Source: a bacterium (GTDB taxonomy: Bacteria; Bacteroidota; Rhodothermia; Balneolales; M1805). From it: DNA of 60,182 nt. This document shows positions 35,291 to 59,089 of this stretch, one piece after another. The notes under the pieces were generated by a model. That model searched no databases. It was not told where the DNA came from and worked only from the letters and a program-made list of their open reading frames with translations. The translations under genes were made by a program, and so were the position numbers. Every line of letters begins with the position of its first letter. The stretch's first letter is position 1. The DNA lies in assembly GCA_006226965.1 (NCBI GenBank), contig SBGQ01000149.1, positions 1 through 60,182 of the forward strand. The letters run 5' to 3'.

Positions 35291-37444
35291 TTATTTGATA
35301 ATGACAAATTTTCCACGCTGGATTTTGCCTGAGTTAAGGTCTTTGACAGTAAAGAAATAAAGACCTGTTGTTAAATTCTGTCGTGCCTCGGTTTGCAAAT
35401 TCCAAGCATATTCACCACCAGACATTTTTCTATTACTAGCTGAAAAATCATTAAACCATCTGGAATCACCAGTATAGGTTTCCGAATCGTGGTTTAATTG
35501 CGCAACAACATCACCGGATAATGTATACACTCTTATTTCAGCTTTTGACGGTAAGTTGTAGAACATGATTTTACGATTAAACTCATTTCCGCCATCCCAA
35601 GCAGCATTTACACGATATGGATTTGGATATACCCCAACTTTTTCCGTGAAATCAACATTAACCGGTGTACCGGGGAAAACCCGTACAGAGTTGGCATTTG
35701 GGCTGGTTTCAAGTGATTCTACATTTTCACCCTCGAATGAAGCGTCAAATGCGGTAACGGAGAATAAATATTGCCATCCGTTTAATAAATCGCCAACTTC
35801 GTATCTGTACCAATATTCAACACCCGGCTCATCATCAAAGGTGACAGGGGTGTTTAAGAGAACTTCGTCGAAACCATTATTGTTACCATATGAATTACCG
35901 TCTTTATCGAATTCTCGGATAACTTTTGCATTGGTAGCAATTGTTCCTTTTAAATCGTCGCCTAGTTTACTTCGATAAATTTTGTAACCCTCAAAATCCT
36001 GAATTCCACTAACGGGGTCAACAGACGATTCAGCTGCATTATCCCAATAAACAACCGCTTTGCCTGATTCGAGTTCAACTCGAATTTTAGGAGTTGAGGG
36101 GGGTTCTGGAATTAAAAATCTATCTAGAACTCCATTTCCGTTTATGTCTTCACCGGCATCTAATACACCGTTTTTATTTCGGTCTTCTCCTTCGAACGTT
36201 CGGTATGCACGTTCAACATTCTCTACAAAAAGTGATTTTGAATATGCATTGTCTTGGATGTTGTAATTCGTAACGTCTTGCAAATCATTCGGCATTAATC
36301 CGGCAACATAAGCCGTATAAACATCAATTGATTCACCTGCAGCAATTTTTCTGAATGGTCCTATAGAAACAAATGAAATATAGTTACCAACAGATGTGCG
36401 ACCATCTATGGCAAGTTTTCGTCGGATGGTGATATTTCCGTTCTGTGGATCGTTAATGGTTGAGTCCATGTTGAAAAATCTTGCCATTTTACCATAACGC
36501 TCAACGTCATCATTTGGGCGCTGGAAAACCCCGGAACCGGAACTAAATAACCAATATGCAGGGTTTACTCGCGGAACTCGTTCATTGGCAGCAGTCAATT
36601 CGTCAGCATTGTCGGGATGGAAGTTTCTCCCTTTGAAATCGGATCCTAAAATGGTTAGTCCGGCATAAGTGTTTAAACTCGGATCATCAGTTGAGCCGGC
36701 ATCAAACACATAAATAGTTTCTAAGGTGTCTATGAACCCGACGCCTAACTTGTTAAAAAAAGCAGAGCCGGTTTCAATTGTACTGTTTACGTTTCTGTTG
36801 ATAAGGTTTACGTAAAACCCTACATAAACACTATCCCAATCTACATCACTGGTGTTTGAAATTTTCCATTTTAAGATGGAGAAGTTTTCAGTAAATCCGA
36901 AATTCCAGTTGTAGCTAGTTAATTCAATGTCGGAGAAAAGTGGTTGTTCGTGTCCAAAAATCGGAATGGTTGAGGAACCTGTATTAATTGAAGTACGTCT
37001 ATCACTGAATTTCGCAATTAAATCCTGATGCGAAATAGCGTTTGGTGAGTATTGCTCAGAAGTTGTTAGTGAAGATCGTTCAAATATGGGTGTTCCGTCA
37101 TTTGTAAACTCAAATCCTGATGCACCGGTTGTAAAACCACCTGATGATGTAACCGCGGATGTAGAAACTTGTAATTGCCCGCCACCATATATGGCGCCAA
37201 TCCAAATTCCGCCTTCAAATAAGTGCTCTTGCCCTGAGTTTAGAGGAAATTGAAAACTTGGAGTTCCTGAACGTCTTGATACGTTTTGCGGGTTTCCAAC
37301 TGTTCCTACGTTTGTTATTGATAATCCGACATTACCGACGGATGATTCTTTGCGGTCGAATACTTGCTGTGCAAATGCACTTTGGTGTAAACCTATCAGA
37401 AGAGAGAAGTAGAGAGCTACTTTTTTACTGTGCGTAAAATTCAT
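35291..37444 (-). CDS. T9SS-secreted large surface protein (first gene of operon)
   Basis: This 717-residue protein has a signal peptide (1-25, ending AFAQQ) and a large unassigned N-terminal region (about 30-460) rich in beta strands. An Asp-rich EF-hand/dockerin-like segment follows (DRNKNGVLDAGEDINGNGVLD near 427-447), then an FnIII-like domain (VELESGKAVVYWDN ... FEGYKIYRSK) and a C-terminal T9SS-type domain (GVYPNPYRVNAAWDGG, IRVYTLSGDVVAQL, ending GKFVIIK). The same domain order, including the 'YPNPY'-type sorting domain, occurs in the protein at 56972. It begins the minus-strand operon; a GAAAACGCTTTT element lies about 95-106 bp upstream of the ATG. Confidence 0.8.
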   Translation of the reverse strand: MNFTHSKKVALYFSLLIGLHQSAFAQQVFDRKESSVGNVGLSITNVGTVGNPQNVSRRSGTPSFQFPLNSGQEHLFEGGIWIGAIYGGGQLQVSTSAVTSSGGFTTGASGFEFTNDGTPIFERSSLTTSEQYSPNAISHQDLIAKFSDRRTSINTGSSTIPIFGHEQPLFSDIELTSYNWNFGFTENFSILKWKISNTSDVDWDSVYVGFYVNLINRNVNSTIETGSAFFNKLGVGFIDTLETIYVFDAGSTDDPSLNTYAGLTILGSDFKGRNFHPDNADELTAANERVPRVNPAYWLFSSGSGVFQRPNDDVERYGKMARFFNMDSTINDPQNGNITIRRKLAIDGRTSVGNYISFVSIGPFRKIAAGESIDVYTAYVAGLMPNDLQDVTNYNIQDNAYSKSLFVENVERAYRTFEGEDRNKNGVLDAGEDINGNGVLDRFLIPEPPSTPKIRVELESGKAVVYWDNAAESSVDPVSGIQDFEGYKIYRSKLGDDLKGTIATNAKVIREFDKDGNSYGNNNGFDEVLLNTPVTFDDEPGVEYWYRYEVGDLLNGWQYLFSVTAFDASFEGENVESLETSPNANSVRVFPGTPVNVDFTEKVGVYPNPYRVNAAWDGGNEFNRKIMFYNLPSKAEIRVYTLSGDVVAQLNHDSETYTGDSRWFNDFSASNRKMSGGEYAWNLQTEARQNLTTGLYFFTVKDLNSGKIQRGKFVIIK

Positions 37445-42126: not shown

Positions 42127-42525
42127 CTATAAAAACAAGGCTTTGATTTCATCTGTTAATTCTAAGATTTTTTGTTCGCGCAAATTCATCACAACGAAGG
42201 TGATATCAGCATCAAGAACTTTGGTGTCTGTGCCTTTTAAAAAGATATCTTGATGAACAACTACGCTTTTATTTCCAATTTTTGAAGTCTGAGTTTGTAT
42301 GAGCAGTCGGTCGTTCAAAACCGCTGCTCTTCGGAAATTTACATTAATATTCACGATAACAAATCCGATGGCGTTTTTTGTAAGCCAATCGATTGTTTGT
42401 TTCGATTCGAGGTAGCTCCATCGAGCTTCTTCTAAGAATTCAAGATAGCGGGCGTTGTTTACATGTTGGTATAAATCGAGATGATAGCCTCGTACCACAA
42501 TTTCAGTTTCTGAAATTTCAGCCAT
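42127..42525 (-). CDS. Acyl-CoA thioesterase, hot-dog fold (4HBT/YbgC-like)
   Basis: This 132-residue hot-dog thioesterase has the FadM/YbgC-type motif DLYQHVNNARYLEFLEEARW (about 17-36). The Asp and the HVNNARY stretch form the catalytic site at the long helix; the FVVMNL segment ends the sheet. Such enzymes cleave medium- or long-chain acyl-CoA. It shares one base with the AmpG-like permease gene upstream and is followed by yhdH. Confidence 0.88.
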   Translation of the reverse strand: MAEISETEIVVRGYHLDLYQHVNNARYLEFLEEARWSYLESKQTIDWLTKNAIGFVIVNINVNFRRAAVLNDRLLIQTQTSKIGNKSVVVHQDIFLKGTDTKVLDADITFVVMNLREQKILELTDEIKALFL

Positions 42526-44390
42526 TATTCAGCTTCCTTTTTTCCGTAATTAGGATCTACTTTAATCAGTTTTGATACCCAGAATGCAGGTATAGTTGCA
42601 ATAAGAACCCAAATAAAAAAGTTTTCATAACCAACCAAAGATTGAATCCAACCGCTTATCATTCCCGGGAGCATCATTCCAAGTGCCATAAAACCTGTAC
42701 AGATGGCATAATGTGCAGTTTGGTGTTCGCCTTGAGCCACATATAACATATAAAGCATGTATGCGGTGAAGCCAAATCCGTAACCAAATTGTTCAAACGC
42801 AACTGCTAAATTCACCATTACAAACGATTCCGGCGTGTACACTGATAATAACCAGTAAGCGATGTTCGGGAAGTTCATTGCAATAACCATTGGCCATAGC
42901 CATTTTTTAAGTCCGTCTTTAGCTGCAAGGAATCCACCTAAAAGTCCGCCCACTGTCAGTGCCAAAATTCCGACTGTTCCATATACAAAGCCGACTTCTC
43001 CGGTTGTTAATGCCAGGCCGCCGGCTTCTTGAGCATCTAATAAAAACGGTGAAGCCAATTTTACAATCTGAGCTTCTGCAAAGCGGTAGAGCAATAAGAA
43101 ACTTAATATTAATCCGATGTCTTTTTTCTTGAAAAAGGCTCCGAATGTGGCAAAGAAATCAGCTAAAACAGAACGCCCGGTCTCGGAAATAGACTTATCT
43201 GTACTTGGTCTCGGAAGCGAGAATTTGTGATAAGCGGAAGCCAGTACAAAAATCCCCGTCAGAATGAAAAAAGTAATCGACCATGAAAAAGGGATATTCC
43301 CCGAAGTACCATTAAATGTAGCGGAACTTATTTTTTTGAGTTTTGGGTCTAATTGAATTACACCGATTGCCGCTTTTTGCCAGTTGTCTTTTGTAAAAGT
43401 GATGCGAGTTCCTTCAACCAATGAAATACTATTATCGCCATCGCTTCTTCCCAAATTTAAAACAACGGTTTCGGTTGGCTCTTGGGTTAAATGCAGATAC
43501 ACAAAACCGATATTACCGGGCTGTTTCTTAATAACTGCAATTTCTTCTTTCCCGGCAATGGCTTTAATACCTTTTTCAAGCGGAAGGACAACTATTTTTT
43601 GCCAAAGTGAGGGTTCCGACGGACCTGCTGTTTGAACCGTTGTGTTCGGATGAGTTACATCAGCCACTACAAAACCATTTTCGGCATTCCAGCTTTTAGC
43701 AAAACGCATTAAGGAATCTGTATTAGCTGAAACCTGAGTCGGAATCAAAATTTCAGATTTTGCCAGTTGAATCTCCTGACTAGTGAGCGTTGGAAGCTGT
43801 AGAGAATCCGGGTGAATAAATACCTGTTCTGCTAATTCTGTTGATGTAGAAACGGTAAAGTTAACTTCTTTTAAACCGGTTGATGTTTCGATAAATCCGG
43901 CTAATATGATGAGTAAACCTTGTCCTGTAATCATCGCCATGCGGTAAAATGTGCTTCTTATACCAACAAACCACGCCTGATTGTGGGTGTCTAAAGCATG
44001 AATGTAAAAACCGTCAGCGGCAATATCGTGTGTGGCAGAACTGAATGCAAGTAACCATAAAAAGGCTAAACTGTATTGGAAAAACGAGTCCATCGGAATG
44101 GTTAAAGCAACTCCGGCAAACCCGCCGCCAATGAGCAACTGCATGGTAATAATCCACCAGCGTTTCGTTTTCAATAAATCTACAATAGGACTCCAAAGGG
44201 GCTTAATAACCCAAGGCAAGTATAACCAACTGGTATAAAGGGCAATATCTGTGTTTGATAAACCTAAACGTTTGTACATAATAACGGAAACCGTCATCAC
44301 TACTACATAAGGCAATCCCTCTACAAAATATAATGACGGAACCCATGCCCAAGGATTCCTCTTCGATTGTGACTCTTGTGATTTACTCAT
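42525..44390 (-). CDS. AmpG-like MFS permease with large periplasmic insertion
   Basis: This polytopic protein of 621 residues starts like AmpG (VPSLYFVEGLPYVVVMTVSVIMYKRLG, then SWLYLPWVIKPLWSPIVD). AmpG imports GlcNAc-anhydro-muropeptides. Typical family members have 430-490 residues. Here residues about 168-367 form a soluble beta-rich stretch (GFVYLHLTQEPTETVVLNLG, RITFTKDNWQ) between the fifth and sixth helices, which should face the periplasm. The remaining helices resume at SITFFILTGIFVLA. Placement after GH3, serine hydrolase and D,D-dipeptidase genes supports muropeptide transport. Stop and start overlap or nearly touch on both sides. Confidence 0.8.
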   Translation of the reverse strand: MSKSQESQSKRNPWAWVPSLYFVEGLPYVVVMTVSVIMYKRLGLSNTDIALYTSWLYLPWVIKPLWSPIVDLLKTKRWWIITMQLLIGGGFAGVALTIPMDSFFQYSLAFLWLLAFSSATHDIAADGFYIHALDTHNQAWFVGIRSTFYRMAMITGQGLLIILAGFIETSTGLKEVNFTVSTSTELAEQVFIHPDSLQLPTLTSQEIQLAKSEILIPTQVSANTDSLMRFAKSWNAENGFVVADVTHPNTTVQTAGPSEPSLWQKIVVLPLEKGIKAIAGKEEIAVIKKQPGNIGFVYLHLTQEPTETVVLNLGRSDGDNSISLVEGTRITFTKDNWQKAAIGVIQLDPKLKKISSATFNGTSGNIPFSWSITFFILTGIFVLASAYHKFSLPRPSTDKSISETGRSVLADFFATFGAFFKKKDIGLILSFLLLYRFAEAQIVKLASPFLLDAQEAGGLALTTGEVGFVYGTVGILALTVGGLLGGFLAAKDGLKKWLWPMVIAMNFPNIAYWLLSVYTPESFVMVNLAVAFEQFGYGFGFTAYMLYMLYVAQGEHQTAHYAICTGFMALGMMLPGMISGWIQSLVGYENFFIWVLIATIPAFWVSKLIKVDPNYGKKEAE

Positions 44391-44391
44391 G

Positions 44392-45018
44392 CTATTTTTG
44401 TGTTATCTCCATAAAATCAATATCCAGAACAGGGTATTCCTGCCAGTTTTTGTAATCATAATGCCACCATTCCGATTCCAAAGGTTCGAATCCGTATTTC
44501 ATCATGGTTTCTTTTAAAAGAGCCCGATTCGTTAAAACTGTATCAGATAGTTCGGTGTAGGAATGGCTTGCTTGCGGCAAAAATTCATCGTAAGTGGTTG
44601 GCATCGGTAACTCGTTGCCCTGTAAATCGGTAAGTGTGAGGTCTACCGCCGCCCCGCGATTATGTCGAGAACCTGTTTTTGGGTCGGCAACAAACTCCGG
44701 GTTGGGATACACTTCCCATAATTTTCGTTGTGCTGAAAGCGGACGATAGGCATCGTAAATTTTTAAGCCTAGGCCTTTTTCTTGTAATTCTTTTGCAATC
44801 TGTATGATTGCGTCACCTGCCTGTTTTACCAAAAATGCTTTAGCATCAGGATAAATGACTTGCTGTGTAAAATTGTTCGCAGTGGCATAACGAATATCCA
44901 AAAAAACACCATCTATTTGCTCTAAATCAACAAAAGTAACTGTCGGTTGAGGCGTTTTGTTTTTTGAGCAGCTCAAAATGCTTAGGGATAATAAAATCAG
45001 GCCGAATATTTTCATCAT
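44392..45018 (-). CDS. VanX-like D-alanyl-D-alanine dipeptidase, lipoprotein
   Basis: This M15D zinc dipeptidase cleaves D-Ala-D-Ala. I choose the Met whose ATG overlaps the upstream TGA (TGATG), giving about 208 residues; the next ATG is equally possible. The signal peptide ends in a lipobox (ILSC), so it acts outside the cytoplasmic membrane. Zinc ligands and the active site appear as SRHNRGAAVDLTL (His and Asp) and SEWWHYDY (catalytic Glu and third His). DIRYATANNF and YDAYRPLSAQ are also family-typical. In this setting it probably trims muropeptide stems rather than giving vancomycin resistance, since no vanHA-type genes are nearby. Confidence 0.88.
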   Translation of the reverse strand: MMKIFGLILLSLSILSCSKNKTPQPTVTFVDLEQIDGVFLDIRYATANNFTQQVIYPDAKAFLVKQAGDAIIQIAKELQEKGLGLKIYDAYRPLSAQRKLWEVYPNPEFVADPKTGSRHNRGAAVDLTLTDLQGNELPMPTTYDEFLPQASHSYTELSDTVLTNRALLKETMMKYGFEPLESEWWHYDYKNWQEYPVLDIDFMEITQK

Positions 45019-45935
45019 CAGAACCAATATTTCTTTGGTTGAGAAGGTGAATAGGTATCTGCAGGGTTATAATGCTGATAAATAGCTTTACTTACCGCAC
45101 GAACGTAAACACTTCCGTAATCATCGTATTCGTATCCGGCTTTTTCCTGGTCGTCTGTCATTGCACAAAAAACATACGTTCCGCCTTTTGAATGAACGAC
45201 AACAACTTCCGATTTTGCCTGACTTACAGCACCTTGTTTTGATGCAGTTTGTACTTCCGGCGGAATAACAGAAAGTGCTTCACCATCCCAAAACGAACGC
45301 GTAAGCATGCGATACATTTTTTCAGAGGCTTCCGTGCTGATTACTTTGCGTTCGTATATGGATTGAACTAAATGTGCCATTTCGCGTGGTGTTGTTTGTC
45401 CCCAACCAAATTTTTCTCGGTTGGCTTCTCGCCCCGGCGTTCTGGAATTTACGCGTGTATGTTCATATCCGGCTTGCTCCAACCATTCATTGATTGCAGT
45501 GCCTGAGCCGGCTAAATCTTGTAACCACAAACTGGCCGTGTTATCGCTTAATGCAAGCATAATGAAAACCAATTTGGCAACAGGGAACGTGGCGCCTTCT
45601 TTAGCAACATTTATGAAATCGTCTTCATACGTGTATTTAGGCTCCCCTGTATAGCTTACTAACTGGCTATAACCTAATTCACCTTTTTCGATTCGGTCAA
45701 AAATTTTAACCATAATCGGAACTTTAACCATGCTTGCCGAAGTAAAAACATCATCGGCATGAATGGCTATTTCCTCTTTTCTTTCTACATGATAAACATA
45801 CACACCGGCTCTGCCTTTGAAGTTGGAAATCAAAGTCTGCAATTCTTTTTCGAGCTGTTCTTTCGGTTCAATTTGCATAGAGCAAGCGGATAGGATTAAG
45901 GCTGCAAGAGTTGAAAAGAGGAAATAGGTTTTCAT
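45018..45935 (-). CDS. Class A beta-lactamase-like serine hydrolase, lipoprotein
   Basis: The lipobox is ILSAC (Cys18). The beta-lactamase/DD-peptidase fold is shown by S68-x-x-K71 (TSASMVKVP), the SDN loop S130-D131-N132 (LALSDNTAS) and a KTG-like K233-Q-G235. The stretch TRVNSRTPG aligns with the omega loop of TEM-type enzymes and has Thr where the deacylating Glu166 should be, and no ELN follows. It is therefore unlikely to be an efficient beta-lactamase and more likely acts as a D,D-carboxypeptidase or endopeptidase on muropeptides. It is translationally coupled to the VanX-like gene. Confidence 0.82.
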   Translation of the reverse strand: MKTYFLFSTLAALILSACSMQIEPKEQLEKELQTLISNFKGRAGVYVYHVERKEEIAIHADDVFTSASMVKVPIMVKIFDRIEKGELGYSQLVSYTGEPKYTYEDDFINVAKEGATFPVAKLVFIMLALSDNTASLWLQDLAGSGTAINEWLEQAGYEHTRVNSRTPGREANREKFGWGQTTPREMAHLVQSIYERKVISTEASEKMYRMLTRSFWDGEALSVIPPEVQTASKQGAVSQAKSEVVVVHSKGGTYVFCAMTDDQEKAGYEYDDYGSVYVRAVSKAIYQHYNPADTYSPSQPKKYWF

Positions 45936-45946
45936 GACACAAAATC

Positions 45947-47053
45947 TTATTGAGCGCTCAATTTAGCCTTTAATTTCATAATTCGCTTGTAGGATTTATC
46001 AATGCGAGCTTCTGAAATTTCGCCGGAACTAACCATTTTTTTGATGATTTGAACAGTTTTTGGGACAATATCTTCATCATAAATCAAATTATTGGCAAAT
46101 TGAAGAATATCAACACCTGCTAATACTTGCAGACGAATACCTTCTTCTAAACCGTAGTTTTCAATTACGTATTTGGTTTGTGGAGATTCACCGATAATCA
46201 CACCATCGTAACCTAATTTAGTTCTTAAAACATCTGTAATTACGGTTTTAGAAAGCGATGCAGGGTATTTAGTGTCGTATTTGTTCAGGAAAACGTGAGA
46301 AACCATAATAGCATCTACATCCACATCTTTATCTTCGATGAGTTTTTTATAGGGCTCTAATTCGCTTTCGCTCCAAGAGTTAGAAATGTCAAAAAAACCT
46401 TCGTGTTTTTTACCTGTTTCACTGCCAAAACCGGGGAAATGTTTTAAAGAACTGATAACACCTGACTCGTGTAAACCTTGGATATACGCTTTTGCATGGC
46501 GATATACGGTTTCCGGATTATCAGAAAAACTTCTGAATAATTTGGCTACGATAAGACTTTGTTTGTTAACTACGAGGTCAACTGATGGCGCAAAATTGAA
46601 ATTGATACCTACATTTTTTAGTTCGCTCCCAATTGCTTTTCCGGTTGCTTTAGTATCATCAAGGTTGTCTTTTTTACCGAGTTCCAGATGCGATTTATGG
46701 TTTTTGAAACCGTATTTACCATCTAAACGCTGAACTTTTCCGCCTTCTTGGTCAACCGCAATAAATAGCGGCGCTTTCGCCAATTTTTGAAGTTCAGTTG
46801 TAAGTTTTAATACCTGTTCTTTCGATTCAATATTTCGTACAGGTGAAGCAGTAGAGTTGTCTTTTTCATATAACACTACGCCGCCAAGATGGTTTTTTTG
46901 AATGTCTCTTGCTATGATAGGATTCTTGGAAACATCAGCTCCTCGGAATCCAACCAAAAGCATTTGGCCAATTTTTTCGTCAAGGCTTTGTGCCTGAACG
47001 AGTTGAGTTGCTAGTAATAAGCAAAGTGCAACAAACATCATTTTTGATTTCAT
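45947..47053 (-). CDS. Exported GH3 NagZ-like paralogue with substituted catalytic residues
   Basis: This 368-residue protein has a signal peptide (1-22, ending VQAQS) and the GH3 barrel of NagZ beta-N-acetylhexosaminidases: FIAVDQEGGKVQRL (98-109) and KHFPGFG (204-210). Compared with the neighbour at 47094, the dyad D-T-H becomes K215-K216-H217, and the nucleophile motif S-D-D-L becomes G288-E289-S290-P291. The nucleophilic Asp and the dyad Asp are thus missing while the sugar-binding motifs remain. A binding, regulatory or altered-chemistry role is likely. GAGG precedes the ATG by a few bases. It follows the canonical GH3 gene by 40 nt. Confidence 0.85.
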   Translation of the reverse strand: MKSKMMFVALCLLLATQLVQAQSLDEKIGQMLLVGFRGADVSKNPIIARDIQKNHLGGVVLYEKDNSTASPVRNIESKEQVLKLTTELQKLAKAPLFIAVDQEGGKVQRLDGKYGFKNHKSHLELGKKDNLDDTKATGKAIGSELKNVGINFNFAPSVDLVVNKQSLIVAKLFRSFSDNPETVYRHAKAYIQGLHESGVISSLKHFPGFGSETGKKHEGFFDISNSWSESELEPYKKLIEDKDVDVDAIMVSHVFLNKYDTKYPASLSKTVITDVLRTKLGYDGVIIGESPQTKYVIENYGLEEGIRLQVLAGVDILQFANNLIYDEDIVPKTVQIIKKMVSSGEISEARIDKSYKRIMKLKAKLSAQ

Positions 47054-47093
47054 AGATCCTCAATATAATTTGGAATTGTTTTATGGTTACTGT

Positions 47094-48137
47094 CTATTGT
47101 TTTAAGTATTTGTTTTTGAAGTCTTTAATACGGAAGTAGTTGTCCTCTAAAGTCTTAATGCTTAAGTCTCCTTTGTCGATAGCACGTTTTATGATGTCTA
47201 AAACCTGTTTAGCGTCCTTAGGCTGTTTTGCAAGGTTGTTTCCCAAGCAAATCATGTTTACTCCGGCATTTAGGGCTAAAGGAATGGCTGTTTCGAGTCC
47301 GTATTTTTCAGTGATGGCGCCCATTTGAAGGTCATCGCTGATAATTAACCCTTTGAAGCCGTATTTTTCTCTTAACATCCCGGTTAATACGGTTTTGGAT
47401 AGGGTTGATGGGTGATCGGGGTCAAGGTGACGGTTAAAAATATGTGAGCTCATAACTACTTGGTCGTAGCCCGTGTTGAATAACATATCGTACGGAATTA
47501 GCTCCAAATCATTCCATGTTTCACTCACATCTGTAAAACCCAAGTGGGTATCGCCAAAAGAACTTCCATGCCCAGGGAAGTGTTTAATTCCGGCAAGAAC
47601 ATCGTATTGATTTAAGCCTTTAATGTAGGCTTCGGCATGTTCGTAAACCTTAATCGGGTCGGAAGAAAAACTGCGCTGTTTACCATGGATAATTGGGTTT
47701 TCCAGGTTGGTATCAACATCAACACAAGGAGCAAAGTTTAGATTGATACCTGCATTTGCTAATGTTTGACCAATGAGTTGACCTTCTTCGAGTGTTTCAT
47801 CCAAATTATCTAATTTGCCAAGCGTTTGGTGTGAACGTGTTGTTGGGAAACCATAATCCGCTTTTAAGCGATTTACTACACCGCCTTCTTGATCTATGCT
47901 GATAAATAAGGGGGCTTCGGAAACGGATTGTAGGTCAGCGCATAGTTTTTTTACTTGATCCGGCGATTTTATGTTGTGGACAGGTTCGTTCTGAACCATA
48001 TCCTTATCAAATAAAATGACTCCAGCTAAGCCGAATTCTTTAATTTGTTCAACTATAGAAGGGTTTTGTTCTATAGAACTACCTCTAAAGCCAAGTATTA
48101 ATGTTGATCCTACTAGTTTTTCTAATGAAATAGACAT
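47094..48137 (-). CDS. nagZ: NagZ-like beta-N-acetylhexosaminidase (GH3)
   Basis: This 347-residue protein has no signal peptide, so it is cytoplasmic. GH3/NagZ motifs are complete: FISIDQEGGVVNRL (78-91), R-SF in GKQRSFSSDP, KHFPGHG (185-191) followed by the catalytic dyad D196-T-H198, and ISDDLQM with nucleophile D268. NagZ releases GlcNAc from GlcNAc-anhMurNAc peptides after AmpG import, which fits the permease gene four genes downstream in this run. It lies directly upstream of an exported, catalytically altered paralogue. Confidence 0.9.
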   Translation of the reverse strand: MSISLEKLVGSTLILGFRGSSIEQNPSIVEQIKEFGLAGVILFDKDMVQNEPVHNIKSPDQVKKLCADLQSVSEAPLFISIDQEGGVVNRLKADYGFPTTRSHQTLGKLDNLDETLEEGQLIGQTLANAGINLNFAPCVDVDTNLENPIIHGKQRSFSSDPIKVYEHAEAYIKGLNQYDVLAGIKHFPGHGSSFGDTHLGFTDVSETWNDLELIPYDMLFNTGYDQVVMSSHIFNRHLDPDHPSTLSKTVLTGMLREKYGFKGLIISDDLQMGAITEKYGLETAIPLALNAGVNMICLGNNLAKQPKDAKQVLDIIKRAIDKGDLSIKTLEDNYFRIKDFKNKYLKQ

Positions 48138-48192: not shown

Positions 48193-48789
48193 CTAAAATT
48201 CCATCCCAAAGCCAATTGAAAACGGGAAATCGGCAATTTGTTTAAATCCTACATGCTCGTAGAATCCGATTGCTGTTTCATTTCTTTTCCCGACTTCAAG
48301 ATGTAAGCCTCTCACTCCTTTGAGCTTGAGTTTGGATATAAATGTTTCTATAAGTTCTTTACCATTCCCGCCACCTTGACCTTCCGGTAAAATATCTATG
48401 TGAAGGTGTGCAGGAAAAGCCTTGTATTCCGGCTTAAAATGGTACCCTGTATGCACAATTCGCTGTAATATGGCTTGTATTCCTACCGCAGATTCCGGTG
48501 GCTTAGCTGTTCTGCTTTGTAATTCCGGCAACCATTGTTGCTCCATAAAGATTTGGAAAGCAGCAGAATCAGAAGTTCCGGTTATATAGCCCACAGGCTT
48601 TTTATCAACTACTAAAACTTGTGTTAGCTCTGGCTCAAATTGTAAATACGGAGCTAAAAAAAACTGAGCAGGTAACCATGGTTCTTCTAAAAGTGCACTT
48701 GCATCCTTACCGCTATTCGCTGTTTTCAGGCAAACATCATATAAATAGGGTAAATCCAACGGATGATATGTTCGAATAAGTGCAGCCAA
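48193..48789 (-). CDS. GNAT family N-acetyltransferase
   Basis: This 198-residue acyltransferase has the GNAT acetyl-CoA motif at HLHIDILPEGQGGGNGKELIETFI (about 127-150) and the C-terminal LHLEVGKRNETAIGFYEHVGF. Residues 1-70 (YHPLDLPYLYDVCLKTANSGKDASAL) resemble GNAT proteins related to the C-terminal domain of O-GlcNAcase-type acetyltransferases. Its position between a phosphoesterase and NagZ makes an amino sugar or muropeptide a plausible acceptor, but this is context only. Confidence 0.82.
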   Translation of the reverse strand: MAALIRTYHPLDLPYLYDVCLKTANSGKDASALLEEPWLPAQFFLAPYLQFEPELTQVLVVDKKPVGYITGTSDSAAFQIFMEQQWLPELQSRTAKPPESAVGIQAILQRIVHTGYHFKPEYKAFPAHLHIDILPEGQGGGNGKELIETFISKLKLKGVRGLHLEVGKRNETAIGFYEHVGFKQIADFPFSIGFGMEF

Positions 48790-48792
48790 TGC

Positions 48793-49839
48793 TTATTTAT
48801 GGGTTTCAGCGTTAAATAAACTGTCCTGTGTTGCTTGGAATCGACTTAATTCATCAATTCTCATTTTCTCGGTTTTGTCTTCCGGCTCAAGCTGATGTTT
48901 CCATTCAAACACCTCTCTGTGCCAGCTAACAATGTCCGAATCGTTAAGTTCTAAAACGGTATAACCGGGTTCAAATCCGAGCCAGTTTCCGCCCCACCAA
49001 GCCGCCGATGCTGCCTGCGAAGTAATGTATCGGACATCATTAAAAATGAAATCTTCCGACATGTGTGTATGCCCTTGAAGGAGTGCTTTTACATTATGTC
49101 TTTCAAGAATCAGGCGCAGTTCTTTGTTATCCTGAACCACTAAGTGATTCATGGCTTTCATGGAAAAGTCGGCATTAATTTGCCCCATGTGGTTGAAGCA
49201 GGCGTGGTGTGAAACAACGATTTTCGGTTTTCCCGGATGTTTGCCTAAATCGTAGCGTAACCAGTTTAACTGTTCTTCACCAATTCTCGCTTCGTAACTA
49301 GGTCCATCAGCGGAGTCGATTTGAAAATTGGAGTTTAAAACAGCAAAATGCCAACCTTTATGGTCGAAGCTGTAGTAAGGATTTTTCATCCCAACTCGAT
49401 CCATAATGTACTTTGTGCCTAATTCCGGGTGCGTTACAGGTACTTTTCTTCTAGCTGATAATCCCAATAAATCATGATTTCCGATACAAGGATACCAAGG
49501 CATCTTCAGTCGGTCTGAATGAGTTTTAAAGATGCGAATCTGTTCATCAAACTTGTCCAAATCTGTGTATAAGCCATCGAATGCCATATCGCCGCCCATA
49601 AGAACAAAGTCCGGTTGGGCAACAAGATTGTTGATAGAATCGATACACTTGCCATAACCAACAACGCCTTTTCTGCGTGGTGTTACATGCGGGTCGGTTA
49701 AGTGCACTATTTGAAAAGTTTTTGTATCAGACCCGGTTTTTAGGGCAGAACTTTTCTCCCAAGGAGAAAGTCCTGCGCCTAAAACTCCTAAGCCAAACTT
49801 CCTTAAAAAACTCCTGCGCGAATTGGAATTTAATTTCAT
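48793..49839 (-). CDS. Tat-exported calcineurin-like metallophosphoesterase
   Basis: This 348-residue enzyme has a twin-arginine signal (SRRSFLRKFG near residue 7). All five dinuclear-metal motifs are visible: HLTDPHVTP (about 46), GGDMAFDG, IGNHDLLG, VSHHACFNHMG and LQGHTHMSED. Such enzymes cleave phosphomonoesters or diesters in the periplasm; the substrate is unknown. In this run it could release phosphate from cell-wall or nucleotide-sugar fragments. The gap to the upstream amidase gene is 10 nt and to the downstream GNAT gene 3 nt. Confidence 0.9.
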   Translation of the reverse strand: MKLNSNSRRSFLRKFGLGVLGAGLSPWEKSSALKTGSDTKTFQIVHLTDPHVTPRRKGVVGYGKCIDSINNLVAQPDFVLMGGDMAFDGLYTDLDKFDEQIRIFKTHSDRLKMPWYPCIGNHDLLGLSARRKVPVTHPELGTKYIMDRVGMKNPYYSFDHKGWHFAVLNSNFQIDSADGPSYEARIGEEQLNWLRYDLGKHPGKPKIVVSHHACFNHMGQINADFSMKAMNHLVVQDNKELRLILERHNVKALLQGHTHMSEDFIFNDVRYITSQAASAAWWGGNWLGFEPGYTVLELNDSDIVSWHREVFEWKHQLEPEDKTEKMRIDELSRFQATQDSLFNAETHK

Positions 49840-49849
49840 GTTTCGATGC

Positions 49850-52363
49850 TTATTTCATCAAAATCATTTTTTTGGTAAGAACTACATTGTTGGCTTCTAG
49901 GCGGTAGATATACATACCCGTTGCCAAATTTGCAGCATTAAATTGAACTGTATGTGAACCGGCACTAAATGTTTGATTGGAAACAGTTGCAACTTGTTGT
50001 CCCACAGAGTTATAAACGGTTATTTTCACATTTGCCATTTCCGGTAATTCAAACTGAATGGAAGTACTCGGGTTAAATGGATTCGGATAATTCTGCTTCA
50101 ACTGAATACTAGTAGGTAGTTCAGAAAACGGATTTTCTTCATTTGAAACGGGAGTTGCATAAGCAATGGAACGAAAATCATCGAATGCGAAATAACCGGA
50201 ACTAATATCGCCGCCGCCATAGGTGAGTTGGAAGCTATCAACATAGGCACTTCCGTTAAGTACACCATCTCCGTTTACCCAAGCAACTATTGGGTCGGTT
50301 CCCAAATTCCAGGAAATTAATTTCCAACCAATCCAGTCTACAGTAAACCAAGAGCTGCCTTCTAGTTGGTTGCTTCCGTCACGAAGCATAAATCTGAATT
50401 TATTTCCCGAACCATCTCCAAACACATATGCCTGAATTGTAGATGCGGTTGTGAAGCGACGTGACTGCGGTGCGCTACTCGGGGCTAAGTATAAACGAAT
50501 AAGATTTTCCGGTGCCGCGGTATCCCATCCATAATGAACTACTAAGCTTGCCGTGCTGGAGCCGGTTTTGTTAAAAAGTGTTGTACTGCGTTCACTTGAA
50601 GTTACTTCGGTAATGATTCCAGTTGTACTACCACTTTGTTGAGGCAGCCACCACGAATCGATTGAAGCATCAAAATTATCAATTGATTGAATGCTGGAGA
50701 CGCGTTCATTGTTGGTCGTAAAATAGCCTTTACGATCTGCTCCTAGTGCGTTACCTGTAGTATCGGTTAGTGTTCCTTTTATGTGTACAAAGTATTTTGT
50801 CGAGAGTTTTAAAGAGTCTTGCGGAAAGAATGTAATTGCAGATCTACTTCCAACGGAATAAGTCTCGATAATTCCTGTTACTGAATGGTCTCCGCTTTCA
50901 CTAATTACAGATATAGTTTCGTCGGTAACACTAGTGTGATCAATTAACTCGTCAAACAAAACAGAAATGGATGGTTTTTTATCAGTGATAGTAACATTAT
51001 GTGGGTAAAGAGATACCACTTTGGGACTTGTTACATCTGGACTGCCTGTTGTAAACGCTAACGCATAATCTGTTCCGGCTTCACCATTTGCATCTCCATC
51101 GAAACCGTGTTTATAAGCCGAATTATCTGTAGCAGTTTCAGCAATTGTTAAAACATAATCTGTGTTGAATGCTAATGAATCAGTATAAATTGAAAGCGTT
51201 GAAGTGTTTATCCAATAGTATCTGAGTGCTGCATAAGGAGTAATCGAAATTGCTTGCTCAACACTTTCTTTATCCATAGCTCTGCTAAAGTTGATAAAAA
51301 TTCGTTGTGTTGGATTTACAATAGGGTTGTTGCCACCAGGATCAGTGCTCGTTATAAACGGCGGTTTTTTTGAAACCAACTGAATATTTTGAAATGTTAT
51401 TTCTTTGTTTTTTATATCGATATCGAGCGTGTCAGAATAATAATCTGGATGCGAAACAATTAATTGAGAAGTTTCATTTACTAGACTATCAATATAGAAA
51501 AAACCATTTCGTAGTTGTTCAGGATCAGAACTGTGTTTGTAGAATACTGATTGGTATGTATCTGTGGTATAGGAGCGGTTTTGTATAGAAGCTACAGCCC
51601 CGTTGAGTAATAATCCGCTTTCAGCGTCCTTAATTTCACCGGATAATATGCCAACGTCCGGACGATCTATACCGTGGTATTTTAATATTGCCCAATAAGC
51701 AGAACGGCCTTCTAGTTTTTTATAACCTTCGTTAATATTTCTTTGTTGTTGATAAGGGTTCGTGTGAAATCCAGCCTCGCTTAAGACTGAAGCCATGCTT
51801 GATTGACGATTTACATGTAGGTATGGCCAAGTGTTTGCATGATTATCAACAAGTCCTTGGTAGAAAATACGGTCAGCATAATTTCCACGTCTGCCGATTT
51901 GCATGTTTTGCGTTAAAATAGTGTCAATATAGGCTCCCATCAAACCACCGCCATGAGGTGTTTTTTCAATAGTTTGCCCACCTTGTCTCCATCCGCCATA
52001 TAGCATTAGCGTACTATTGGATGATGAACCACCGGCATCACTATGGATAGAGTAGTAAAAGTCGGCACCCAAAGAATTTGCTAAATCAGTTCGCTGAGCC
52101 AAGCTTATTATAATCTGATCATCCATTCTACTCATGTAAACAGTATCAATATCTGTTTCGGTTAGTAAGAGATCTCGAAGGTGCATTGCAACTCTGAGTG
52201 TCTTTTGGGCTTCAGAATAGTTATATAAACCCATGTTTTCTGTTTGGGAATGCCCCGGGTCTATAAATAGTGTCCAACCGCTTAATCCGGTTACTTTTTG
52301 GGCTTGAACTTGAATTTGTGTGAGAGCAAATAGGGTAATAATAGCAATAGATAATTTTCTCAT
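49850..52363 (-). CDS. T9SS-exported N-acetylmuramoyl-L-alanine amidase
   Basis: This 837-residue protein has a signal peptide (1-22). Residues about 30-230 are an Amidase_3 zinc amidase with the ligand and catalytic set H38 (DPGHSQ), E51 (YSEAQ), H107 (YSIHSDA) and E196 (SEAGFHTNP). A CarboxypepD_reg-like domain (GILSGEIKDAESGLLLNGAVA) and two SbsA-type Ig domains (NPTQRIFINFSRAMDKE, KPSISVLFDELID) follow, then a jelly-roll-like region (about 560-740). The type A T9SS sorting domain (NYPNPFNPSTSIQF near 758, ending KKMILMK) sends it across the outer membrane. It could therefore act on external peptidoglycan rather than on the cell's own sacculus. Confidence 0.9.
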   Translation of the reverse strand: MRKLSIAIITLFALTQIQVQAQKVTGLSGWTLFIDPGHSQTENMGLYNYSEAQKTLRVAMHLRDLLLTETDIDTVYMSRMDDQIIISLAQRTDLANSLGADFYYSIHSDAGGSSSNSTLMLYGGWRQGGQTIEKTPHGGGLMGAYIDTILTQNMQIGRRGNYADRIFYQGLVDNHANTWPYLHVNRQSSMASVLSEAGFHTNPYQQQRNINEGYKKLEGRSAYWAILKYHGIDRPDVGILSGEIKDAESGLLLNGAVASIQNRSYTTDTYQSVFYKHSSDPEQLRNGFFYIDSLVNETSQLIVSHPDYYSDTLDIDIKNKEITFQNIQLVSKKPPFITSTDPGGNNPIVNPTQRIFINFSRAMDKESVEQAISITPYAALRYYWINTSTLSIYTDSLAFNTDYVLTIAETATDNSAYKHGFDGDANGEAGTDYALAFTTGSPDVTSPKVVSLYPHNVTITDKKPSISVLFDELIDHTSVTDETISVISESGDHSVTGIIETYSVGSRSAITFFPQDSLKLSTKYFVHIKGTLTDTTGNALGADRKGYFTTNNERVSSIQSIDNFDASIDSWWLPQQSGSTTGIITEVTSSERSTTLFNKTGSSTASLVVHYGWDTAAPENLIRLYLAPSSAPQSRRFTTASTIQAYVFGDGSGNKFRFMLRDGSNQLEGSSWFTVDWIGWKLISWNLGTDPIVAWVNGDGVLNGSAYVDSFQLTYGGGDISSGYFAFDDFRSIAYATPVSNEENPFSELPTSIQLKQNYPNPFNPSTSIQFELPEMANVKITVYNSVGQQVATVSNQTFSAGSHTVQFNAANLATGMYIYRLEANNVVLTKKMILMK

Positions 52364-52384: not shown

Positions 52385-53344
52385 TTATTCAGTTATCGTT
52401 TCAACAGCAATAAGAAACAACTTGCCCTCAGTTGGCGAGTCGAATACAATTTCTTTGCCATTAGGAGACCATGATGGATTCATTGCAAGAGGAGAAAAAT
52501 TTCCTGTTAAATTAAAAGACTTAGATCCGTCAATACTTTTTACCATGATATCGGAGCGTGTGTAGCTGTGTCCGTTGTCATCTGCTTGCATATACACAAT
52601 AAATTTCCCGTCCGGCGAGAATGATGGTCTATTTCCAGTGCCTAAATCAGTAAGTTCTTGAGTTTCAAGATTCATTACATATAGGTTTCCACCGTAAACT
52701 TCAAAAGCTGCATATTTTGCATCAGGAGAGAGTACCTCGTTTAAAAGGGGTTGTTCAAACGGTGGACGGATGATTTCAACGCCATTTAATGAGTAAAGCT
52801 TGAGTTCTTTATTCTCATAGTTTAACACCTTCGTTACAAGCTCGTTAGATGGGGCAGGAATAGCCTTTTGAAGAGTTACGTAATTCTTGTTTTCAGTAAA
52901 ACGAACATCTGAGCCTACAAAAATCGGCAAATCAGGGATTTTCGACTCAAAGTTTGTTAGTTGTTTTGTTGATTTTTCTGCAACATTTACAAGAACGACG
53001 GCATGTTTGCTTCGTTTATTTTCAACCATGGTTTCTCTTGCCAATATGAATTCTCCGTCGGGCGACCATTGAAACCCAAATCCAATTCCTGTTCGTTGCG
53101 CAAGTAAGCTCGCCGTTTTAGTTTGAGTGTCAAGTATGTATACTTGATCGTTGCCTGGAGTTGAGAAAGCAATTTGTTTCCCTGATGGAGACCATTTTGG
53201 GCGTTGTGCATTAATAATGTCAATATTAATTGCTTGTGGTTCACCGACTTTTAGAGATTGTGCATAACTAGAATTGTGTACGTACATAATGTGCATAATG
53301 ATTGCAATTATGAGCACTGTCTTATTCTTCACTGATTTAACCAT
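52385..53344 (-). CDS. TolB-like PD40 beta-propeller protein
   Basis: This 319-residue exported protein has a signal peptide (cleavage near SSYAQS). The body is built of WD40/PD40 blades: RPKWSPSGKQIAFSTPG, FGFQWSPDGEFILARE, NEVLSPDAKYAAFEVYGGNLYVMNLETQEL, NRPSFSPDGKFIVYMQ and NPSWSPNGKEIVFDSP. It resembles the propeller part of TolB without the N-terminal TolB domain. A binding role in the periplasm is likely. It is the first gene of the minus-strand run that includes the amidase (21-nt gap), and it is divergent from the TonB receptor gene at 53787. Confidence 0.82.
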   Translation of the reverse strand: MVKSVKNKTVLIIAIIMHIMYVHNSSYAQSLKVGEPQAINIDIINAQRPKWSPSGKQIAFSTPGNDQVYILDTQTKTASLLAQRTGIGFGFQWSPDGEFILARETMVENKRSKHAVVLVNVAEKSTKQLTNFESKIPDLPIFVGSDVRFTENKNYVTLQKAIPAPSNELVTKVLNYENKELKLYSLNGVEIIRPPFEQPLLNEVLSPDAKYAAFEVYGGNLYVMNLETQELTDLGTGNRPSFSPDGKFIVYMQADDNGHSYTRSDIMVKSIDGSKSFNLTGNFSPLAMNPSWSPNGKEIVFDSPTEGKLFLIAVETITE

Positions 53345-56971: not shown

Positions 56972-59089
56972 ATGAAAAGACTATACAAACTAAGTATTTA
57001 TTCGTTTTTCGTCTTATTGATGTTCATAGCCCAATCATCGGTGGCGCAAGTTGCACATAAGTGGCTTGCCCTAGGAGATTTGCAGAATTTCTATGCAAGT
57101 TTTGGTACTGAAATTGAGTTAGGCTTTATCAACAGACAACAAGCGGGACTAGCATGGCCAGGTATATATCAATTCCAAGATGCGCAAGCATCGAAGGCTA
57201 TGTGGCTGGGGGTAAAAAACTTCACAGATCAAAACGGGGTAAACTTTGATTACAAAGTTGTACACTCGGGGCCTCGAGTAAGAGCTGATGCCTATTTTTT
57301 TCCAGTAGAGTACTATTTAATCTCTAAAAAAGAAGCAACGAAGGTAAGCGTAGATGAAGTGTTGTCGGAAAGAGTTGAACAGACTGTAGATTCTGTTGAT
57401 GCAAATATTCCTGGCGATCGCATGATTTATGCAAAATTTAATACTGCAATTGGTGTTACTGTTGAGCGTAAAATTCATCAGTTTTCGCAGCAATATCATG
57501 ATGATTATCACATTATTGAAGTTACGTTAACCAATACCGGATTTACGAGTAAAGAAGAAACAAATCCATTAAATCGTACGATAAATGATTTGATTTTTTA
57601 TGAGTTTAACCGCTGGGCTCCTGTATTGCAGACTCGTTATATGATTGGTAATGCAACTGGTTGGGGTATAAACACTATGAATGACCGCCGTGGTGATGGA
57701 TTAAATAGCTCTGGTAGCCCTACAGAAAATGAATTTAAAGCTCAATATGCTTGGCAGGGTAAGTTTGCGGCTTATACACCACCGCTTCCTGATGCTGATA
57801 ACTTAGGTGCACCGATAATCGTTCCTAATACAGTAAATGGATATATGTCTGCCTCAGATACATCAGGTCGCTTGGGAGCATATCATTTTGTCGGAAAAGT
57901 TCATCTACATGCTGATAAATCTGCAACAGATAAATCTAATGATCCGAACCAACCGCTAACAATGTCAGAAATTGATTCGGATAATTCAAATACGTTCAAC
58001 AACGATCCAGAGAATAGAACTAGGATGTCAGTTGAATATGAAGAGTTTATGAATGCAGGTGTAACACCGCGTCAAGCATACCTTGTAGAACCAACCGGTG
58101 ACGCTGGTTTTATAACTCCGAAAGGTAATCCTGCCTTAGGAACAACGGGCGGTTGGAGTGCAGCTACCGGTTATGGTCCGTATACATTACAACCCGGTGA
58201 AAGTGTAACCATTGTTTATGCTGAAGCAGTAGGTGGAATTGGGCATCAGCATGCGAGAGTGGTTGGTGCTAAGTACAAAGCCGATTTATTAAATCCAGCA
58301 GTAAATAATCAAGCTGCAAATTTGGAAAAAAACACAGAGATGTTTAAAGGAAGAGATTCCTTGTTTCAAACTTTTCGTCGTGCAATTGCAAATTATAATT
58401 CGGGTTATCAGTTAAGACAAGCACCGCCTGCACCAATATCAGTAGATATTACATCGACCGGTAACGGTATTCTTATTAACTGGGATTATAATGATGCTGA
58501 TGAGAGTTTAATTGATGGTTTTGAAGTATATCGTTCACCTTATTTACCTGATTCAACAGCAAAACTTATTGCAACCCTTGATGTTGGCGACCGAGAGTTT
58601 GTTGATGGTGATGATACTCCTGCCGGTGCACCAATTAGAGGTGTGAATTACTTTTATTATGTAACCGCTGTTGGGAAGCCTGATAATACGCTAGACCCGG
58701 CATTGACACCCGCAGGTGTACTTCGAAGTTCAAGATATTTCACACAATCATATGACTACGCTCGTTTATTAAGACCACCGGGAACTTCAATGGATCAAAT
58801 ACGAATTGTTCCCAATCCATACATTGCAAAAAATGTCGATGCTTTGCGACTTGGCGTTGAAGGAGATGAAAGAATTGCATTTTTTGAAATACCAAATAAA
58901 ACGAGTATAAAAATCTACAATGAATTAGGGCAATTTATTCAAGAAATAAACGAAGAGCGGAAAGGTGATGCCTTTTGGGATTTTAGAACAGTATCCAGAC
59001 AAAGAGTAGTTAGTGGAATATATATTGCTGTTATCAAAAACCTCGAGACTGGCGAGGAAATAATCAAAAAGTTCGTAGTTCTACTTTAA
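56972..59089 (+). CDS. T9SS-type surface protein with FnIII-like domain (second cassette)
   Basis: This 705-residue protein has a signal peptide (1-26, ending SSVAQ), a large unassigned N-terminal region (about 30-480), an FnIII-like domain (VDITSTGNGILINWDYNDADE ... GFEVYRSPY, about 490-590) and a C-terminal T9SS-like sorting domain (RIVPNPYIAKNVDALRLG, IKIYNELGQFIQEI, ending IIKKFVVLL). The domain order equals that of the protein at 35291, the first gene of the other cassette. No enzymatic motif was seen. It is likely a secreted or surface-attached partner of the adjacent receptor. The following gene starts 13 nt downstream. Confidence 0.8.
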   Translation: MKRLYKLSIYSFFVLLMFIAQSSVAQVAHKWLALGDLQNFYASFGTEIELGFINRQQAGLAWPGIYQFQDAQASKAMWLGVKNFTDQNGVNFDYKVVHSGPRVRADAYFFPVEYYLISKKEATKVSVDEVLSERVEQTVDSVDANIPGDRMIYAKFNTAIGVTVERKIHQFSQQYHDDYHIIEVTLTNTGFTSKEETNPLNRTINDLIFYEFNRWAPVLQTRYMIGNATGWGINTMNDRRGDGLNSSGSPTENEFKAQYAWQGKFAAYTPPLPDADNLGAPIIVPNTVNGYMSASDTSGRLGAYHFVGKVHLHADKSATDKSNDPNQPLTMSEIDSDNSNTFNNDPENRTRMSVEYEEFMNAGVTPRQAYLVEPTGDAGFITPKGNPALGTTGGWSAATGYGPYTLQPGESVTIVYAEAVGGIGHQHARVVGAKYKADLLNPAVNNQAANLEKNTEMFKGRDSLFQTFRRAIANYNSGYQLRQAPPAPISVDITSTGNGILINWDYNDADESLIDGFEVYRSPYLPDSTAKLIATLDVGDREFVDGDDTPAGAPIRGVNYFYYVTAVGKPDNTLDPALTPAGVLRSSRYFTQSYDYARLLRPPGTSMDQIRIVPNPYIAKNVDALRLGVEGDERIAFFEIPNKTSIKIYNELGQFIQEINEERKGDAFWDFRTVSRQRVVSGIYIAVIKNLETGEEIIKKFVVLL

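Follow-up and report, generated by a model that had tools for sequence, protein, structure and literature searches.

An exported NagZ-like GH3 protein with replaced catalytic residues in a putative AmpG-type recycling cluster of Balneolales

NagZ, as described in E. coli, P. aeruginosa and B. subtilis (YbbD/NagZ), resembles the proteins analyzed here in its catalytic GH3 barrel, in the DQEGG, RSF and KHFPG motifs and in a peptidoglycan-recycling neighbourhood. The enzyme is cytoplasmic in E. coli and P. aeruginosa, whereas in B. subtilis it is exported and active. Rhodothermus marinus, a related organism, lacks both AmpG and a cytoplasmic NagZ and has an exported GH3 protein, RmNag3 (PMC6987092), which is linked to a beta-lactamase-like protein. 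Non-catalytic NagZ-like GH3 proteins are already known; the precedent is the fungal GlcNAc sensor Ngs1 of Candida albicans, a NagZ-like GH3 protein with a broken Asp-His dyad that binds GlcNAc via KH and whose hydrolase activity is undetectable (PMC5063960).

Here, a stretch of 60,182 nucleotides from a bacterium of the order Balneolales (assembly GCA_006226965.1, contig SBGQ01000149.1; hereafter, the window) was analyzed, in which two adjacent genes encode P1, a GH3 protein predicted to be exported, and P2, a GH3 protein predicted to be cytoplasmic. In comparison with NagZ, every catalytic residue is present in P2, whereas P1 lacks the nucleophile Asp and the dyad Asp. P1 is similar to Ngs1 in its broken dyad and kept KH pocket; however, Ngs1 is fused to an acetyltransferase domain, is intracellular, acts in transcription and has lost the dyad His, whereas P1 carries PF00933 alone, would be a free exported bacterial protein and has lost the dyad Asp together with the nucleophile. 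RmNag3, in contrast to P1, is active, larger and fused to a beta-lactamase domain, and represents the periplasmic route that the lineage of P1 seems to have left.

Active sites of the two GH3 proteins

An earlier note, made from the letters of this DNA, had described two neighbouring GH3 genes, the cytoplasmic one with D196-T-H198 and S-D268-D-L and the exported one with K215-K-H217 and G-E289-S-P in their place, while DQEGG and KHFPG were kept. Both open reading frames are found there on the minus strand, and the motif numbering is exact (Table 1): DTH occupies 196-198 and SDDL 267-270 in P2, and KKH occupies 215-217, GESP 288-291, DQEGG 101 and KHFPG 204 in P1. In addition, RSFS is present at 174 in P1, and DQEGG at 82 and KHFPG at 185 in P2.

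Table 1. Coordinates of the two GH3 genes, their motifs and neighbouring genes in the window
Feature	Position	Strand	Basis
P1, exported single-domain GH3 (NagZ-like), altered active site, 368 aa	45947..47053	-	Pfam, BsNagZ alignment, AF2
P1 D101-Q-E-G-G105, GlcNAc-binding motif, kept	46739..46753	-	role from RmNag3/NagZ, PMC6987092
P1 K204-H-F-P-G208, GlcNAc-binding motif, kept	46430..46444	-	motif check
P1 K215-K-H217, replacing D-x-H catalytic dyad	46403..46411	-	motif check, alignment
P1 G288-E289-S-P, replacing S-D-D-L/M; E289 at nucleophile	46181..46192	-	motif check, alignment
P2, cytoplasmic NagZ-like GH3, intact, 347 aa	47094..48137	-	Pfam, motifs, conserved-position count
P2 D196-T-H198 dyad, intact	47544..47552	-	motif check
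P2 S267-D268-D269; D268 nucleophile, intact	47331..47339	-	motif check
AmpG-like muropeptide MFS permease, 621 aa, ~190-aa insert	42525..44390	-	TIGR00901, 163 bits, below curated 350
D-Ala-D-Ala dipeptidase (DdpX/VanX-like)	44392..45027	-	NF007557 above cut-off
Class A beta-lactamase-like serine hydrolase	45018..45935	-	Pfam/NCBIfam profile matches
GNAT acetyltransferase	48193..48789	-	Pfam
Metallophosphoesterase, found in recycling islands of relatives too	48793..49839	-	Pfam, relatives' loci
Amidase_3 N-acetylmuramoyl-L-alanine amidase with Big_5 and T9SS sorting tail	49850..52363	-	Pfam/NCBIfam, relatives' loci
PD40/TolB-like beta-propeller, conserved beside AmpG in relatives	52385..53344	-	relatives' loci

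PF00933, the sole Pfam domain of either protein, was matched over almost its full length, with 215 bits for P1 (cut-off 27) and 208 bits for P2; this whole-domain match and the TIM-barrel fold of the AF2 model place P1 in the GH3 fold family. The NCBIfam equivalog for beta-N-acetylhexosaminidase, PRK05337, gave 154.5 bits for P1 and 162.7 bits for P2 against a curated cut-off of at least 207, and since the intact P2 also falls below it, this model fits the lineage poorly. Export of P1 was called by eye and by a hydropathy rule from an N-terminal hydrophobic stretch with a VQA|QS-like end; export of the GH3 copies in other genomes was likewise judged by hydropathy, with a few start sites set by hand.

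In an alignment with B. subtilis NagZ (3bmx), the Asp-His dyad is matched by K215 and H217 of P1, and the nucleophile by E289. Asp occupies the nucleophile position in 211 and the dyad position in 213 of 218 aligned homologues (~97%), and the replacements in P1 are far beyond chance. The NagZ-type Asp nucleophile, Asp-His dyad and pocket are all found in P2. Among 66 positions with a conservation of 95% or more across 104 intact homologues, P2 differs at one; P1 differs at 11 and keeps 55, and its departures lie mostly around the active site (62, 63, 209, 215, 289, 290, 293, 295 and 296). The GlcNAc pocket of P1, with contacting residues taken from RmNag3/NagZ (PMC6987092), is kept: D101, R109, R174, F176, K204 and H205, within the DxEGG, RSF and KH motifs. 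AF2 modeling returned a confident barrel for P1 (pLDDT 92.7). The solved structures closest to it are GH3 N-acetylglucosaminidases. The best matches include the BsNagZ D318N variant crystallized with GlcNAc-MurNAc; thus, a NagZ without its nucleophile can keep its ligand. Glu at the nucleophile position is a conservative change, and leftover or different activity may be retained.

A putative recycling operon and its link with AmpG

The P1 and P2 genes belong to a same-strand run extending from the PD40/TolB-like gene to the AmpG-like permease gene, in which all gaps are at most 55 bp; from P2 through P1, the beta-lactamase-like gene and the dipeptidase gene to AmpG they are 40, 11, -10 and 1 bp. 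The cluster looks like a peptidoglycan-recycling operon. As in an AmpG-type locus, an AmpG permease (by homology) and a cytoplasmic NagZ are encoded together, and the cluster is conserved in other genera. NagZ and AmpG functions were assigned by homology, with AmpG and both GH3 proteins scoring below the NCBI curated cut-offs, and the permease is treated as AmpG-like, a putative importer of GlcNAc-anhMurNAc.

The insert of this permease spans residues ~173-365, between predicted TM5 and TM6, and would be periplasmic if the N-terminus is inside. A Pfam search of the insert gave no match; by eye it resembles a Calx-beta-like sandwich, the AF2 pLDDT of the permease being only 42.5. The AmpGs of families f2, f4 and f5 also carry the ~190-aa insert, whereas those of f3, 433-439 aa long, lack it. 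In family f2 (L264:6688-8759, L265:735-3237), a cytoplasmic GH3 gene is followed by a class A beta-lactamase-like gene, as in the window, and this pair is the split counterpart of the fused RmNag3 arrangement. Pfam also gave no match for two further window proteins, encoded at 35291-37444 (717 aa) and 56972-59089 (705 aa). The window genome, G000, encodes another exported GH3 protein, L004 (G000:C57:30553-31533), whose catalytic residues are intact and whose C-terminal stretch resembles a T9SS sorting tail; through L004, GlcNAc-ase activity outside the cell may persist.

In relatives, the island contains genes for AmpG, a TolB-like protein, an amidase, a second AMIN-amidase, NamZ, cytoplasmic NagZ, a BadF-type kinase, an HGSNAT-like protein and a metallophosphoesterase. 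This salvage island (L267:500-13100, with equivalents in genera g3, g10, g13 and g38) is patchy between and within genera, which suggests transfer or repeated loss.

To extend the comparison across the order, 129 Balneolales genomes were surveyed, in which MAG incompleteness affects the absences. Matches to the window's AmpG were found in 40 of them. Among genomes with both AmpG and cytoplasmic NagZ, the exported copy is degenerate in 13, partly altered in one (G081) and absent from 20; among AmpG-negative genomes, it is intact in 63 and truncated in one, and a further one (G052) has a degenerate copy next to an intact one. The active site is altered in all 14 exported copies of the former group, 13 of which have lost catalytic residues. 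An intact exported copy was found in G094 (64% complete), where AmpG is 41-42% identical and cytoplasmic NagZ was not found. A Fisher test on nearly these counts, with the intact AmpG-negative cell entered as 66 rather than 63, gave p ~3e-12, a value that is only descriptive because the genomes are related. The altered exported copies fall in four independent lineages, and because there are only four, the pairs/sign test (3 or 4 of 4 in the same direction; p 0.125 at best) cannot reach phylogenetic significance. NamZ presence fails to separate the two groups of genomes.

The pattern extends to individual residues. F62, H209 and M293 are invariant in 63 of 63 intact exported copies from AmpG-negative genomes, whereas genomes with both AmpG and cytoplasmic NagZ show changes at F62 and M293 in 14 of 14 exported copies, and at H209 in all but L050. 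The copy of G081 has intact catalytic residues yet carries F62Y, R109Q, H209Y and M293S; therefore, even this apparent exception has begun to diverge.

Origins of the altered exported copies

In a careful tree of 51 rows, built without the catalytic columns, P1 forms a pair with the exported protein L009 of G052 (support 99/98), and P2 groups with the cytoplasmic copies from other families (97/87). The earlier note had proposed duplication followed by conversion; as a local event this is not supported, since a P1+P2 clade, as expected from recent tandem duplication, is rejected on the careful tree (p-AU 0.0145). The same clade is not rejected on a noisier 112-row tree with long branches (p-AU 0.54). 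One common origin for the four nucleophile-altered copies was rejected as well (p-AU 3e-5, careful tree). Conversion of a hexosaminidase into a non-canonical protein, the other half of that proposal, is supported by the coordinated replacements, the recurrent losses in independent lineages, the kept pocket and the Glu of the orthologue; the note had overlooked both the operon setting and the association with AmpG plus cytoplasmic NagZ.

In L009, Glu occupies both the nucleophile position (AESPQ) and that of the dyad Asp, and the ESPQ motif is conserved between it and P1. The conservation of the E and K substitutions, which the note had named as a check, is therefore partial: Glu at the nucleophile is shared with the only orthologue found, whereas the dyad Lys is Glu there. 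The P1/L009 type is known from these two genomes, in one of which, G052, AmpG was not detected and an intact exported paralogue is present. The contig composition favours a native L009, and its being a contaminant of G052 is unsupported (tetranucleotide r 0.95 with another G052 contig).

A first contig scan with P1 alone found no relative, and a second brought up other Balneolota, Chlorobiota, Firmicutes and further homologues, in none of which the nucleophile or dyad was replaced. In a 394-genome sample of the phylum, the best matches fetched besides the window's P1 were all intact, G052 not being among the genomes listed. Beyond the order, the class was represented, among the matches listed, only by longer frames (~600 aa or more).

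Independent alterations were found in other exported copies. In L042 and L050 (genus g10), the nucleophile is E or N and the dyad Asp has become A or T; this pair, like P1, retains every pocket residue tested. Class B (L053-L057, L240-L242, L286 and L287; genera g3 and g13) is a second kind of disarmed exported GH3, in which the nucleophile Asp is kept and the dyad, DQEGG, Arg174 and His205 are lost. Intact and degenerate exported copies in g3, g10 and g13 share one site between thioredoxin-family and HD-domain genes, and are therefore one gene altered in situ. All degenerate copies are full-length open frames. Close class B pairs gave dN/dS of 0.09-0.15 and the most distant pair 0.25 (dS near saturation), compared with 0.04-0.09 for intact exported and cytoplasmic pairs, most of them with dS near saturation; for L042/L050, dS is saturated (pN 0.144, pS 0.743). 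The altered copies are thus under purifying selection where this is measurable, namely in close class B pairs; P1 has no close relative for such a measurement. Since class B has lost the pocket, GlcNAc binding cannot explain in general why disarmed copies are kept, and class B, judging from its residues, must do something else.

Possible roles of the exported protein

On balance, we lean towards reading P1 as a disarmed periplasmic NagZ, kept as a non-hydrolytic protein after recycling moved to AmpG and cytoplasmic NagZ. This reading builds on the residue changes, the kept pocket, the predicted fold, the compact cluster, the AmpG/NagZ link, the repeated loss and the purifying selection on other disarmed copies, and the disarming itself is well supported. 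An ancestral exported GH3 N-acetylglucosaminidase would have lost its nucleophile Asp and dyad Asp while retaining the barrel and the GlcNAc-binding residues. AmpG, whose principal requirement is the GlcNAc-anhMurNAc disaccharide (PMC7670621, PMC13046382), would import GlcNAc-anhMurNAc(-peptides), from which P2 would take off GlcNAc inside the cell. An active periplasmic NagZ would remove GlcNAc before import and spoil the AmpG substrate, and we propose that for this reason the exported copy would be deleted or lose catalysis; where AmpG is lacking, as in R. marinus with its exported RmNag3, it would stay intact. The pocket kept in P1 and in the g10 pair suggests that the ligand is still bound, and Ngs1 provides a demonstrated case of a GH3 protein with a broken dyad that binds GlcNAc and signals; the role of P1 is probably muropeptide or GlcNAc binding, and it may serve as an AmpG carrier, a buffer or a sensor. 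Several observations speak against this reading: the altered lineages number only four, the nearest orthologue of P1 comes from a genome in which AmpG was not detected and an intact exported paralogue is present, class B has lost the pocket, G000 itself encodes the intact L004, and the Glu of P1 is a conservative replacement.

The chemistry of P1 could instead have changed, making it a slow hydrolase, a transglycosidase or a phosphorylase: E289 would serve as a nucleophile with a longer arm, and H217, together with K215/K216, would deal with the leaving group or with an anion, for example phosphate. Glu289 is indeed a carboxylate that also occurs in L009, where both Asp positions are Glu; P1 retains H217 and the pocket, and ESPQ is conserved in both orthologues. 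However, the nucleophile position is Glu in one g10 species and Asn in its sister, as for a nucleophile that is lost and not re-used, the dyad Asp is replaced by any of K, E, A and T, and P1 has also lost the neighbouring Asp and the preceding S, so that we regard this as improbable. We give similarly little credence to relaxed redundancy, in which the exported copy, unneeded once a cytoplasmic NagZ existed, would be functionless and drifting towards loss. The 20 genomes with AmpG and cytoplasmic NagZ and no exported copy fit such drift, as does the somewhat faster evolution of degenerate than of intact copies, but the frames all remain full-length, dN/dS is low in close class B pairs, the class B clade has been maintained in two genera, and P1 keeps most of its conserved positions within a compact cluster.

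It also seems quite unlikely that P1 is a non-catalytic subunit or regulator acting through protein contact, for instance with the beta-lactamase-like protein or AmpG, and not through sugar binding. Class B, under purifying selection without dyad and pocket, indicates that some disarmed copies act without GlcNAc binding, and P1 is clustered with envelope proteins, but contact alone would not require the pocket residues that P1 and the g10 pair keep in full.

Returning to the disarmed, ligand-binding reading, a bolder form of it would have P1 found a class of periplasmic muropeptide-binding proteins that capture GlcNAc-anhMurNAc-peptides uncut and hand them to AmpG, with the gain of AmpG and cytoplasmic NagZ repeatedly forcing the change. 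We consider this hand-over doubtful; if true, an enzyme's loss of activity would have been selected by a change of transport route.

The link with AmpG-based recycling is a more interesting result than the duplication and conversion first suggested. If the favoured reading is true, the locus would represent a natural experiment: cleavage of a cell-wall sugar bond shifted from periplasm to cytoplasm, and the former enzyme was disarmed in several lineages in parallel, with its gene retained. GH3 annotations in the phylum would then have to be read with caution, as they would cover probably inactive proteins. Periplasmic NagZ activity and AmpG-based recycling would likewise be predicted to be incompatible, and the disarmed copies would point to possible soluble binding partners of AmpG.
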